From Diabrotica undecimpunctata (taxonomy: Eukaryota; Arthropoda; Insecta; Coleoptera; Chrysomelidae): a stretch of 64,000 bases of DNA. Below are positions 29,636 to 40,196 of the stretch, one piece after another (within the stretch, counting starts at the first letter, position 1; each line of letters opens with the position of its first letter). The stretch covers positions 125,749,461 through 125,813,460 of the forward strand of contig NC_092803.1 of the NCBI RefSeq assembly GCF_040954645.1. The letters run 5' to 3'. The notes under the pieces are model-generated. The model searched no databases, had not been told where the DNA came from, and saw only the letters and a list, made by a program, of their open reading frames with translations. The position numbers were made by a program, and so were the translations under genes.

Positions 29636-30153
29636 ATGAAAAAGACAGAAAAGATTTGATTTCACGTACAAAGCGTCTATGTATCTGTTGATACGTATTT
29701 CGACTTAATAAGTCTCATCAGAACAGTTATTCATAGCCGTTCTTAACGTGAAAAATAATCTTCTCTGTCTTATTAGGAAGCAACAATAAAATGGCTTCGT
29801 TATGGACGCAATAGCGACATCTGATAGAAAAATCGATAAGATAGTTTCGAAACAAATTCAGATTTCTGCTTTAATCTGGAGCCTTCTAAAAATTGCAAAG
29901 CATAGCCAGACGTTGATAAAGATGTTAATAGAGACATGGGGAATCTAAAATTTGCATTCCACGACATGTCTCCTCAACTAAGCAGAAATCTTTAACGAAT
30001 TTGTTTCTTGTACTCATACAGAGTAGATCCGAATAAAATGAAAAAGACAGAAAAGATTTGATTTCACGTACAAAGCGTCTATTTATCTGTTGATACGTAT
30101 TTCGACTTAATTAGTCTCATCAGAACAGTTATTCATAGCCGTTCTTAACGTGA
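29636..30153 (-). mobile_element. Retrozyme-like element A: 402-bp unit plus partial second unit
   Basis: The 518-bp insert begins ATGAAAAAGACAGAAAAG, and the same words recur at 30038, so the unit is 402 bp and the insert holds 1.29 units. Two hammerhead cores on the minus strand (29698-29721, 30100-30123) sit one unit apart and flank the unit body. A 12-bp TSD bounds the insert. There is no open frame of note. Known biology: dimeric or partial tandem units bounded by hammerheads are typical of retrozymes and of Penelope LTR-like repeats. The assignment to one of these is inference. Confidence 0.8.
29660..29753 (-). ncRNA. Type I hammerhead ribozyme candidate, A1
   Basis: On the minus strand an outer helix TTTCACGT/ACGTGAAA (29746-29753 with 29660-29667) closes the structure. 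Inside come CTGATGA, G-ACTT-ATT-AAGT-C (5-bp stem II), GAAA, and a stem III-like hairpin TACGTATC, AACA, GATACATA with one C/A mismatch. Cleavage would most simply fall after AUA, just before GAC, but A15.1 then lacks a clean U partner, so activity is uncertain. The core and stem II are fully canonical. Confidence 0.75.
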
Positions 30154-30155
30154 AA
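30062..30155 (-). ncRNA. Type I hammerhead ribozyme candidate, A2
   Basis: The second ribozyme of element A. Core CTGATGA, GACTAATTAAGTC, GAAA at 30100-30123. One stem II base has changed (loop-closing A/A) so the helix is 4 bp. The outer helix TTTCACGT/ACGTGAAA is intact and its last two bases overlap the right TSD. Confidence 0.7.
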
Positions 30156-30165
30156 AAAAGATGGG
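30154..30165 (+). repeat. Right TSD of ribozyme element A
   Basis: AAAAAAGATGGG, identical to 29624-29635. Confidence 0.85.
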
Positions 30166-30564
30166 CTAAAGAATTATTATATTATATTGCTATAAAGAAT
30201 TACTAGACAAAAAAATCGGCCATTTTTCAAACATTTCAAACATTTTAAAAATTATAAGATCGAAGACAGAGAAATTACAAACAACAGGTACCAAGTAGCG
30301 AGATGTAAAAAAATATTTTCTGGAGATCCAAGGTATAGGAATTGTGGAAAGTCTCGGAGAATGTAGATTTGCATATATCCAACGAAGCCCAATCCAAAAT
30401 GGACAAAGAGAGAGAGAGAGAGTGTTGATAAACAACAAATCTCCGGGAACTGACTACATTGCTGCCGAATACCTCAAAGATATTCCGCATCGAAATGATG
30501 GATAGAGAATAAAAACGTCCAGAAAGTGAAGCTATATCGGCCAGATACTTAAAGTAAAAAAAGC

Positions 30565-31170
30565 TTCTGCATTACAAAGACTGCAGTAGAGTGAAATCCA
30601 TAAGAAGAAATAAAATGAGGATGCCCAACATAAACTTGGCAAAGAAGGAAAAAAGATAAATTACGAAAAAGATGAGGGGTAAAGGAAAGTTTTGGAATGA
30701 GATGAAAGCTTTGGCGTAAAACAAGACACCACGTAGGAATTCCAGAACCTTCCGAACGCTGTTCGGGAATTATTTGCACAGGTATCATATCATTTACGAA
30801 ATACTTTTTAATATAGTGCCTTTTCTATTTACAAACCCAAAACCATTAAATTAAATCACTTGTCATTTTACAACAGAATCTATAAAAAAATATATATCCA
30901 TACGAACAAGACAATAAGTGATTCATACACTGACCGCTGGGAATTAAGTACATAATTGACGACCTGTTTGATTACACCCAGTATACTATAAATTTTACAT
31001 TAATTTTTGGTAATTTGAAGTTATATATGTTACGGTTAAAACGATACGATAATAGTAGAATTACCCGGATAGAGTTAGAATTATTCAAGCCTAGTGAATA
31101 AAGCTACATATTTGTGAATATTTTGTTGTATTCTGGATTAATCCGGTCAATACTATATTATTCTGTTCAA
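30565..31170. other. No gene recognised
   Basis: AT-rich sequence between ribozyme elements A and C, with no recognisable frame. Confidence 0.4.
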
Positions 31171-31171
31171 A

Positions 31172-37272: not shown

Positions 37273-38845
37273 CACTCAGGTGCAAAAAAATCGATCCATT
37301 CCTTATTTCTTATTTATTTGAAGTTGTATAATTTTAGAGATATTAAATTACGTATGTAAATTTAGGTGTATCCTCGTATACGAGAAATAAAATAATATTT
37401 TTAATATTGCTTTTTATATTTCCTAAAACAAATTGGTATTTCAGGTTTTTGTCAAAAAGGGTCTGAAGCAAGTAGATATTTATTGAATGTTGTTTTTAAT
37501 TCAACAACCATACTAGTGTAGTGATTTTATTTTGAAAACGTGTTATTTTTTTATTTAATTATCCTTCCTAAATGTCTCTAACTCCGACAGATGCTGCAAG
37601 GGCGGTGACTTTAGTTCAAGATGGTCGTACCCAATATTATGCAGCTGAAATGTTGGGTGTTAGTCGATCTTCGGTTCAAAGAGCAGTTCGGTGTTTTAGC
37701 GACACCGGTAACTTCACAAGAAGACCAGGATCAGGTCGTAGAAGGGTAACATCCGAAAGAGATGATCGATTTCTGGTCTCATGTTTGAGATCATGTTTGA
37801 GAAATCGGCATCTAACTTCAGTTGAACTGGCAAATCGTCTGAGCGAAGTGAGAAATGTGGATGTAAGCAGATGAACAGTTCGTCGACGACTTGTAGAAGG
37901 TAATTTATTATCCAGAAGGCCAGCCCTATCCCCAATACTATCCATAGAACATCGCAGAGCTCGCCTTGCTTTTGCAAGAGAACATGAAAACTGGAGTGAT
38001 GCAGATTGGAGCTATGTATTGTTCTCAGATGAGTCCAGAATTTGTCTAAGGTTACCAGACAGCCGAGAAAGGGTTTGGAGAAGACATGGAGAGCGATATT
38101 TTCAATGTAATATTGCGGAAAGAATAAAAGTTATCGGGGGGGCTCCCTTATGGTTTGGGCTGGTATCAGTTCAGAAGCCCATACTGATTTAGTTATTGTA
38201 GATAGACGATCTATGACTGCTGCAAGATACATAACAAGTATTTTAGGTCAGCATGTGGTACCTTTTGCTCGTTTCATTGGACCTTTTATTGTTACGGACG
38301 ACAACGCGCATCCTCTCCGTGCTAAAATCGTCAACCAATATATAGAGGAGGTGGGAATTGTCCGTATAAACTGGCCAGCTTGCAGTCCTGATCTCAATCC
38401 CATAGAACATCTATGGGATATGATGGGAAGACGTCTTCGAGCACGAGTACCCCTTCCAAACAACTTGGCTGAACTTACAGCGGCTCTTCAAGAAATATGG
38501 GACCAATTGGATCAATCTGATATCCAGAGGTTAATTACCTCAATGCCTAGACTTATACAGGCTGTTATAAGGGCCCGAGGGGGAAACACTAGATATTGAT
38601 TTATTATCAATGTGTTTCTTAATTTCAGAAAGTTTTCAATATTCTTGTATTTTTGAGTTTTGGCGCATGTCTCTATAAATAAATGATTTTTTTGGATAAT
38701 CTGTAAAAATTATTTTAATCTAACATATACTTATAGACATTATACATATACATACATATAGACCTGATTTAAAACTAATATCTTCAAACGTTTTTTTTTT
38801 TTTCAGCAAATAATACCCATGGATCGATTTTTTTGCACCTGAGTG
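37273..38845 (+). mobile_element. Near-intact Tc1-like transposon
   Basis: The 1573-bp element has inverted ends CACTCAGGTGCAAAAAAATC with matching GATCGATTTTTTTGCACCTG, AGTG at the right, about 27 bp each. TA duplications lie at 37271-37272 and 38846-38847. It encodes one transposase on the plus strand with only two visible lesions. Long (AT)n tracts lie on both sides. Confidence 0.92.
37572..38599 (+). pseudogene. Tc1-like DD34E transposase, two lesions
   Basis: The protein starts MSLTPTDAARAVTLVQDGRT, with a paired-like HTH (YAAEMLGVSRSSVQRAVRCF) and a basic linker (RRPGSGRRRVTSERDD). An in-frame TGA at 37872-37874 stands where CGA (Arg) is expected (SR-stop-TVRRRL), a CpG-type change. 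The first catalytic Asp is in VLFSDESRICL. A run of seven G at 38136-38142 breaks the frame, which resumes at 38150 with MVWAGISS. The second Asp is in TDDNAHPL and the Glu in SPDLNPIEHLWD, with exactly 34 residues between them. The end VIRARGGNTRY is canonical. Length is normal for the family. Confidence 0.93.
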
Positions 38846-38942
38846 TATATATATATATATATATATATATATATATATATATATATATATATATATATAT
38901 ATATATATATATATATATATATATATATATATATATATATAA
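38846..38942. repeat. (AT)n microsatellite
   Basis: About 97 bp of AT dinucleotides directly following the Tc1 element, starting with its TA target site. Confidence 0.97.
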
Positions 38943-39374
38943 TATTGTAAACGTTGTATCGTGTAAGTATTTTTAAAGTATTTGGTATATATTAAATTAA
39001 AATAAATTTATAAATATAAGTGTTTTCTCGATATAAATAAAAGTGGAAAATAAGTATGTTGCAAGGCCTGTTCCAAAATCTTAAGTTATGTACATTTATT
39101 TTCACATTTAATTTCTTAAATTAAGAATCAAAATATAAAAATTCTAATTGTGGATAATCCCTCTTATGTTCTATCGTTCAGCAGTAGATTTATACATCCC
39201 TCCAGTGTTCAACATTAACATGAATAAAAAAAATATTCGTTTAATCAAGACCTGTGTTAAGCTCTGTTAGCAGCAAACAATACTCCGTTAAAAAATAGCA
39301 AATACATATTTCAGGTAATTTTTTTAAATATATTGTAATTTCAATATTTCTAACGAGGCAACACTAAAAAAGAG
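38943..39374. other. No gene recognised
   Basis: AT-rich sequence upstream of the hAT remnant. It may include decayed hAT N-terminal sequence that I cannot read. Confidence 0.35.
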
Positions 39375-39735
39375 CAATGCAAATACATTTTATGACGAAG
39401 TAATTAAGGAAATTGAAGTTTCTTAAATCGATAAAAACTTTTACGTAATTATCGCTGAAAGTATAGATATATATGGTCGATATATGGTACATCTTATAAT
39501 CGGTGCCATAAAAGAGGATGAACCAGGAAAGTCATATTTAATAGCTGCAAAATAATTAGAAAAAACCAAAAATATGACTGTAAGCCGTTTCATTCAGTAG
39601 ACACTATCTGCTTTCTTTTTATCAGAAGAAATAATAAGTGAAATTTTTTTAATATTTTTATCAAAAGTAGGACCAAATTTGAAAATATTTGACCCAAATA
39701 TGCTACACGTCACTTATTTTCTACATGAAGTGATA

Positions 39736-39743
39736 TGGATTTA
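39736..39743 (+). repeat. Left TSD of ribozyme element D
   Basis: TGGATTTA, repeated at 40197-40204. With one mismatch the repeat extends to 12 bp (GATATGGATTTA / GATTTGGATTTA). Confidence 0.75.
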
Positions 39744-40196
39744 AATCCGTAAGATAGTTTCGAAACACAATTTAGAATTCTGCCTTAATCTGAGCCTTCT
39801 AAAAATTGCAAGGCAAAGCAGACGTTGATAAAGATGTTAATAGAGACATGGGGAATCTATAATTTGCATTCCACGACATGTCTCCTCAACTAAGCAGAAA
39901 TCATTAGCGAATTGGTTTCTTGTACTCATACAGAGTAGATCCGAATAAAATGAAAAAGACAGTCAAGATTTGATTTCACGTACAAAGCGTCTATGTAATC
40001 GTTTATACGTATTTCGCCTTAATAAGGCTCATCAGAACAGGTATTCATAGGCGTTTTCAACGTGAAAAATAAATCTTTCCTGTCTTTAAGAAGCAATACT
40101 AAAATGGCTTCGAAACGGACGCAATAGCGACATCTGATAATAAATCCGTAAAATAGTTTCAAACACAATTCAGATTTCTGTCTTTTTCATTTGATT
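39744..40196 (-). mobile_element. Retrozyme-like element D inside a hAT gene
   Basis: A 453-bp insert of the same family as A and C. AATCCGTAAGATAGTTTC at its left end recurs as AATCCGTAAAATAGTTTC about 399 bp later, so it holds 1.1 units. Its start point within the unit differs from A and C (a circular permutation). One hammerhead lies at 39974-40067. Removing the insert and one TSD rejoins the hAT sequence. Confidence 0.8.
39974..40067 (-). ncRNA. Type I hammerhead ribozyme candidate, D
   Basis: Core at 40012-40035: CTGATGA, GCCTTATTAAGGC, GAAA. Stem II GCCUU/AAGGC is a third paired variant of this helix. The outer helix TTTCACGT/ACGTGAAA is intact. The stem III-like hairpin (TACGTA/TTACATA) is slightly weaker than in A. 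Confidence 0.75.

Follow-up and report, generated by a model that had tools for sequence, protein, structure and literature searches.

The stretch analysed here is a 64-kb window (64,000 nucleotides) of contig NC_092803.1 from the chrysomelid beetle Diabrotica undecimpunctata, which contains three dispersed insertions, A, B, and C, of a repeat of approximately 400 bp with a type I hammerhead ribozyme on its minus strand. To judge by their sequence, the copies very probably represent an animal retrozyme of the non-long terminal repeat (non-LTR) type, a non-autonomous retroelement of approximately 400 bp with a type I hammerhead, and the A-B-C family is a further family of this established class.

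Ribozyme copies and their core

Four minus-strand type I hammerhead cores, each composed of CTGATGA, a stem II, and GAAA, were identified in the window (Table 1), and the order on that strand is CTGATGA-stem II-GAAA-TACGTA-T-H in all four. A check of the CUGANGA/GAAA core found A15.1-U16.1 and H17 correctly ordered in every copy. A sequence-only reading of the stretch had proposed four minus-strand motifs sharing an outer helix; all four were found in place, and the outer helix TTTCACGT/ACGTGAAA is identical in each. Its count of four ribozyme copies also stands, but the insertions number three, as the copies starting at 29660 and 30062 belong to one element of 1.3 units. The pattern CTGATGA-N(6-30)-GAAATACGTA has four matches in the window and none in 100 dinucleotide shuffles. 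A stricter descriptor (stem I of at least 5 bp, stem II of at least 4 bp, A15.1-U16.1 with at least 1 bp of stem III, and H17) matched three of the four copies and no other site in the window, while 3 of 200 shuffled windows contained a match. The copy missed by this descriptor is C, whose core-adjacent stem I was found by eye and by pair count to have only 4 bp, one of them G-U. The plus strand of the elements gave no match to CTGANGA-GAAA, and the elements thus differ from the viroid-like pattern of ribozymes on both strands. Scans of viral and genome contig collections with the core pattern returned no match in either (0 and 0), as expected for an animal element.

Predicted structure and covariation

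The ribozyme is open at stem I, which comprises CUGUU/AACAG next to the core (weakened in C), an internal loop, and beyond it CUAUG/CAUAG (one pair broken in A1) in a helix continuing to UUUCACGU/ACGUGAAA. Stem II has five pairs and an AUU loop, largely as given in the sequence-only reading, which missed the broken fifth pair of A1 (GACUA/AAGUC). Stem III consists of two pairs (A-U and U-A) capped by a palindromic ACGU loop. Candidate partners for a tertiary contact are present in the internal loop of stem I and the AUU loop on stem II. Cleavage is predicted after C17 in the A copies and after A17 in B and C. Over the 29 pairs in four copies, 94.8% of the 116 cells pair, and sliding one side by 1–3 columns lowers the paired cells to 20–51%.

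Among these four related sequences, two of the five stem II pairs change on both sides; one is split evenly between A-U and C-G, and the other is U-A in three copies and C-G in the fourth. Column shuffles gave at least as many double-changing pairs in 113 of 500 cases and reached the covariation score in 28 of 500, and the control slid by +3 also yielded one pair changed on both sides. The outer helix is identical in all four copies and is therefore uninformative on covariation. Stem II covariation is real but thin, four related sequences being insufficient alone to carry the claim; the double changes pointed out earlier are present, while the strength of selection read from them was overstated in view of the column shuffles.

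The top-scoring Rfam family on the ribozyme was a hammerhead in all four copies, in each case below the gathering score. A1 matched Hammerhead_1 with 22.9 bits (E 0.018, in a 2.2-kb search of 29400–31600); A2 matched RAGATH-1-hammerhead with 20.1 bits (E 0.15) and Hammerhead_1 with 19.6 bits (E 0.01); B and C matched Hammerhead_3 with 20.5 bits (E 0.019) and 19.2 bits (E 0.045), respectively. The searches for A2, B, and C took 108 bases per copy, which makes their E-values small. MicroRNA and small RNA families matched the palindrome of B in the 29400–31600 search with better E-values than the hammerheads and were dismissed as long-hairpin matches. A covariance model built from the four copies (R1) recovered the same four; it also gave weaker plus-strand matches at the same places (31.9–38.7 bits), which are read as the self-complementarity of a helix-rich element.

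The repeat unit and its insertions

The repeat unit is 402 bp long in A and 399 bp in C, its GC content in A is 0.34, and stop-to-stop readings around the circle reach at most 63 amino acids, in line with the earlier description of a family of approximately 400 bp lacking an open reading frame. ARAGORN found no transfer RNA in the window, so there is no intact transfer RNA head. Folded as a circle, the A unit has a predicted energy of −109.0 kcal/mol against −75.7 ± 5.7 in 200 shuffles, none of which was as low (z −5.8), and none of 80 same-length control stretches of the window folded as low.

Target-site duplications (TSDs) flank A and B, and an equally long exact flank match was reached in 5 of 3000 random pairs for A and 2 of 3000 for B. 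The corresponding figure for C, which is flanked by TAAATCCA(A/T)ATCA, is 111 of 3000, so its duplication is not secure alone; the left flank bases of C also resemble inverted element sequence, which makes this edge ambiguous. In A, the first two bases of the outer helix of A1 fall inside the TSD. With gaps uncounted, 2 of 104 positions differ between the end repeats of A, 5 of 99 between the arms of B, and 3 of 35 between the short terminal repeats of C, while the differences between insertions amount to 26 of 194 (A-B), 30 of 194 (A-C), and 15 of 197 (B-C). A looks more recent, given 2/104 between its end repeats against 26/194 between A and B. When segments of the three insertions were used as queries, the window yielded no further copies at E up to 1e-3. 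The sequence-only reading made no mention of the TSDs, the partial dimer of A, the inverted 5′ pieces, or the palindromic turn of B.

Two sites within the unit, approximately 205 nt apart, recur at the insertion ends, namely T1 (...TTTTTCATT) and T2 (...ACGGATT). The right ends of A and B lie at T1 (...CTGTCTTTTTCAT, with three extra T in B) and that of C at T2; on the left, B ends at T2 inverted, C at T1 inverted if its TSD is read correctly, and A at neither site. Up to five of the six ends are accordingly at T1 or T2, one of the C ends being ambiguous. In B, the sequence is inverted between T2 and the hairpin region, where it changes direction, and from there it continues in forward orientation past T2 and the ribozyme as far as T1. 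At 518 bp in A and approximately 434 bp in the forward part of C, the element sequence is longer than the unit and crosses the joined cut site, which fits a circular or an uncut multimeric template. The chance of five ends clustering 3 + 2 within 4 nt, with the left end of A omitted, is 9e-5; by our arithmetic it becomes about 5e-4 when the choice of omitting that end is allowed for and, if the left end of C is not at T1, only two pairs are left and the value is roughly 0.02 for six ends. These values concern three insertions and a pattern noticed before being tested. In the predicted circle, the accessibility of T1 lies at the 97th (A) and 78th (C) percentiles and that of T2 at the 74th (A) and 85th (C), which is only suggestive. 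An RNA polymerase III terminator was ruled out as the cause of T1, as the ends are located past its T run and no such run occurs at T2.

Table 1. Insertions, candidate ribozymes, and flanking duplications in the window.
Feature	Coordinates	Strand	Description
Insertion A	29636–30153	−	518 bp (1.3 times the 402-bp unit) with two hammerheads and terminal direct repeats of ~116 bp
A unit between predicted cut sites	29690–30091	−	402 nt; predicted RNA monomer
TSD of A, left copy	30154–30165		12 bp, CCCATCTTTTTT
TSD of A, right copy	29624–29635		12 bp
Hammerhead A1	30062–30155	−	predicted cut 30092 (C17)/30091; one stem II pair broken
Hammerhead A2	29660–29753	−	type I including outer helix; predicted cut 29690 (C17)/29689
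Insertion B	31185–31618	−	434 bp; an inverted 5′ arm turns at a palindrome and is followed by forward sequence with one hammerhead, ending at T1
Inverted 5′ arm of B	31520–31618	+	copies the stretch upstream of T2; 94/99 identical to the forward arm of B
Turn of B	31480–31519		inside the natural hairpin of the element, GAGACATG...CATGTCTC in A and C
TSD of B, left copy	31619–31631		13 bp, AAATGGGTATATA
TSD of B, right copy	31172–31184		13 bp
Hammerhead B	31212–31305	−	predicted cut 31242 (A17)/31241
Insertion C	39744–40191	−	448 bp; ~14 bp of inverted T1, then ~1.1 units to T2; one hammerhead
Probable TSD of C, left copy	40192–40204		12/13 match, 8 in a row; ambiguous
Probable TSD of C, right copy	39731–39743		13 bp
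Hammerhead C	39974–40067	−	stem I weakened; predicted cut 40004 (A17)/40003

Comparison with known hammerhead repeats

In the accessible part of the published account, animal non-LTR retrozymes are described as units of 170–400 nt that occur as tandem dimers and more, with a GC content below 45–50% and self-paired circles (Cervera and de la Pena 2020; PMC7229834), with larger TSDs when these are present and with insects among the hosts (PMC7229834). The Diabrotica copies resemble them in the type I hammerhead, unit size, low GC content, copies that exceed one unit, TSDs of more than 4 bp, and a stable predicted circle (PMC7229834); they differ in having a sequence of their own and in occurring in the window as three dispersed insertions of at most 1.3 units and not as long arrays. 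A link to animal retrozymes had been suggested by the sequence-only reading, and size, low GC content, the partial dimer, the absence of an open reading frame, and the TSDs all match the published class. The novelty that it claimed was overstated, since the class is known and compensatory stem II changes have already been published for the insect repeat pDo500, a satellite of Dolichopoda cave crickets that has a hammerhead in a repeat of approximately 500 bp and compensatory changes in stems I and II (PMC2837043, as partly available). The likeness to pDo500, which is also an insect hammerhead repeat with compensatory changes, is by description and not by sequence comparison, and pDo500 differs in being a satellite with a repeat of approximately 500 bp (PMC2837043). 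The axolotl hammerhead HHR_Amex2 has a U-U mismatch at the base of stem II, whereas the 5-bp stem II described here is without this U-U mismatch (PMC7229834). No inverted 5′ pieces or shared end sites like those found here were seen described for animal retrozymes in the part of this account that was available (PMC7229834). Among the entries listed in a wider survey of largely freely readable literature, neither the occurrence of the A-B-C family in Diabrotica nor, for any animal retrozyme, a sharing of end sites or an inverted arm was reported; within this scope both negatives are weak.

Several results weigh against assigning the copies to the retrozymes. At the gathering score, Rfam gave no match in the whole window, and the best hammerhead score, 22.9 bits, stands against a threshold of 34 for RF00163, as scored without a published insect hammerhead as control. 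None of the four 83-nt ribozyme regions, folded in linear form, has a minimum-energy fold of unusual stability (z −0.05 to −1.19), and the proposed stems I and II appear together only in B; A1 and A2 form stem II alone, and C, with its weakened stem I, folds otherwise. Since the linear folds disagree in three of the four copies, the proposed structure rests on the conserved core, its position, and comparison and not on minimum energy. The paired fraction of the A circle, 0.62, is close to that of its shuffles (0.61) and lies below the figure of "above 70%" given for other metazoan units in the accessible part of PMC4918200. The copy set, finally, is restricted to three insertions in one 64-kb window. 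The sequence-only reading would have been abandoned for want of a hammerhead model match above threshold, and no such match was found; we consider this outweighed by the full core, the sub-threshold hammerhead matches, and the retrozyme anatomy.

Proposed cycle and mobilization

Tandem copies would be transcribed from the hammerhead strand, the ribozyme would cut the RNA after H17 into units of approximately 402 nt, and these units may be circularized by a host ligase. Another element could then provide the reverse transcriptase, which would copy either the circle or an uncut multimer at a target site that has been cut and so give insertions of more than one unit with TSDs of 12–13 bp. For animal retrozymes, both long interspersed nuclear elements (LINEs) and Penelope-like elements (PLEs) have been named as mobilizers, with PLEs as a strong candidate, in the available part of the account (PMC7229834).

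Rotifer Penelope elements, in the part of the description that could be consulted, carry a 5′ pseudo-LTR in inverted orientation; their inverted junctions contain palindromes, and their TSDs, where present, measure 8–10 bp (PMC3846280). A Penelope enzyme from a lizard cleaves both strands, extends each of them, and starts inside the RNA, with a start site that is equal between strands, and insertion in that system did not need ribozyme cleavage (PMC11167929). The present copies recall PLEs in the partial tandems with direct end repeats, the inverted 5′ segment, the head-to-head palindrome, and the TSDs (PMC3846280; PMC11167929), together with an apparent internal start of reverse transcription at the same sites for both strands (PMC11167929). 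They differ in that a unit without an open reading frame (longest reading 63 amino acids) encodes neither a reverse transcriptase nor a GIY-YIG endonuclease, in their TSDs of 12–13 bp against 8–10 bp in the rotifer elements (PMC3846280), and in end sites approximately 205 nt apart against 30–40. An inverted 5′ segment, a palindromic junction, and a TSD are combined in one of the three insertions, B; C has a short inverted piece only, and A has none. The resemblance to Penelope-like insertions appears to be real, but it concerns three insertions, with the whole pattern only in B, and no PLE came to light in this genome, where no search aimed at one was made.

Most simply, these junctions would be read as the outcome of priming by both target strands on a single RNA, at T1 and T2, with the resulting complementary DNAs (cDNAs) joined at short complementary stretches. 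In the full form of this reading, a circular RNA would be primed at the two internal sites by the two strands of a staggered cut, the cDNAs would join within the natural hairpin in the case of B, and a Penelope-like enzyme would act in trans; this form is put forward tentatively, as a proposal that may well fail. If it were true, the published guess that PLEs are the mobilizers would become directly readable from genomes; should the two end sites and the inverted arms recur throughout the genome, the helper enzyme of animal retrozymes might be identified from junctions alone, and the Diabrotica genome would lend itself to a simple trial of this.

Mobilization by a LINE-type reverse transcriptase, through ordinary target-primed reverse transcription with 5′ inversions produced by L1-like twin priming, is a serious contender, with not quite an even chance of being right. 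TSDs of 12–13 bp fit LINEs, a comparison already made for the Nematostella repeats with their 15-bp TSDs (PMC4918200, in its available part), reverse transcriptase remnants of the LINE kind (RVT_1, Exo_endo_phos) occur in the window, and published work leaves LINE or PLE open (PMC7229834). Set against this, none of the three right-hand junctions has a poly(A) or simple-repeat tail, and common internal start sites on both strands and palindromic head-to-head turns are features described for PLEs (PMC11167929; PMC3846280, as far as accessible). Rather unlikely is snap-back self-priming, by which the inverted arms of B and C would come from a cDNA that folded back and copied itself and not from priming on two strands. 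The turn of B lies inside a natural hairpin, and similar palindromic junctions in rotifer Penelope elements were explained in this way by the authors in the accessible portion of their text (PMC3846280); what self-priming leaves unexplained is that these inverted arms begin at T2 (in B) and at T1 (in C), the right ends of other insertions (with the ambiguity of C).

The retrozyme assignment itself has two weaker competitors. Immobile and unselected remnants of a satellite or of gene conversion, with a fossil ribozyme, would suit the weakened stem I of C and the broken stem II pair of A1, and ribozyme-bearing satellites do exist (pDo500; PMC2837043, as partly available); three dispersed insertions, two with clear TSDs, and the more recent appearance of A speak against them and make this explanation improbable. 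Most improbable is a chance resemblance in repeats unrelated to hammerheads: the missing Rfam match at the gathering score and the linear folds, unfavourable in three of the four copies, would agree with it, but the full core in all four copies, two compensated pairs, and the occurrence of the descriptor in just 3 of 200 shuffles do not. A DNA transposon with inverted ends was ruled out, as TSDs of 12–13 bp do not suit the target-site duplications of DNA transposons and copies exceed one unit.

Other features of the window

Retroelement remnants that carry RVT_1 or endonuclease domains and look LINE-like by eye were found at 1866–2594 (−), 45919–46578 (−), 46821–47945 (+), and 59880–60491 (+); the second and third adjoin on opposite strands, and 46821–47945 has relatives in flies, butterflies, bugs, beetles, and others. 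A reading frame with a ribonuclease H domain at 51188–52117 (−) is perhaps the 3′ part of a LINE. Fragments of Mariner/Tc1-like transposases lie at 23206–23667 (+), 35370–35906 (−), and 38150–38599 (+), of which the last has a DDE_3 match and the first two, without a Pfam match, were named by eye. A Tc1-like transposase fragment at 55340–56053 (−) shares 86% identity, across 91% of its length, with a protein of Diabrotica virgifera virgifera, the sole match with E up to 0.001 among 150 candidates. Of all features in the window this gives the best indication of the host, probably a leaf beetle close to Diabrotica, although transposons are poor markers of species. A tandem repeat of 101 bp in 1.8 copies (92% matches) was identified at 33320–33501, and a pure AT dinucleotide run of 160 bases occupies 49884–50043, with more long AT/TA runs elsewhere in the window.

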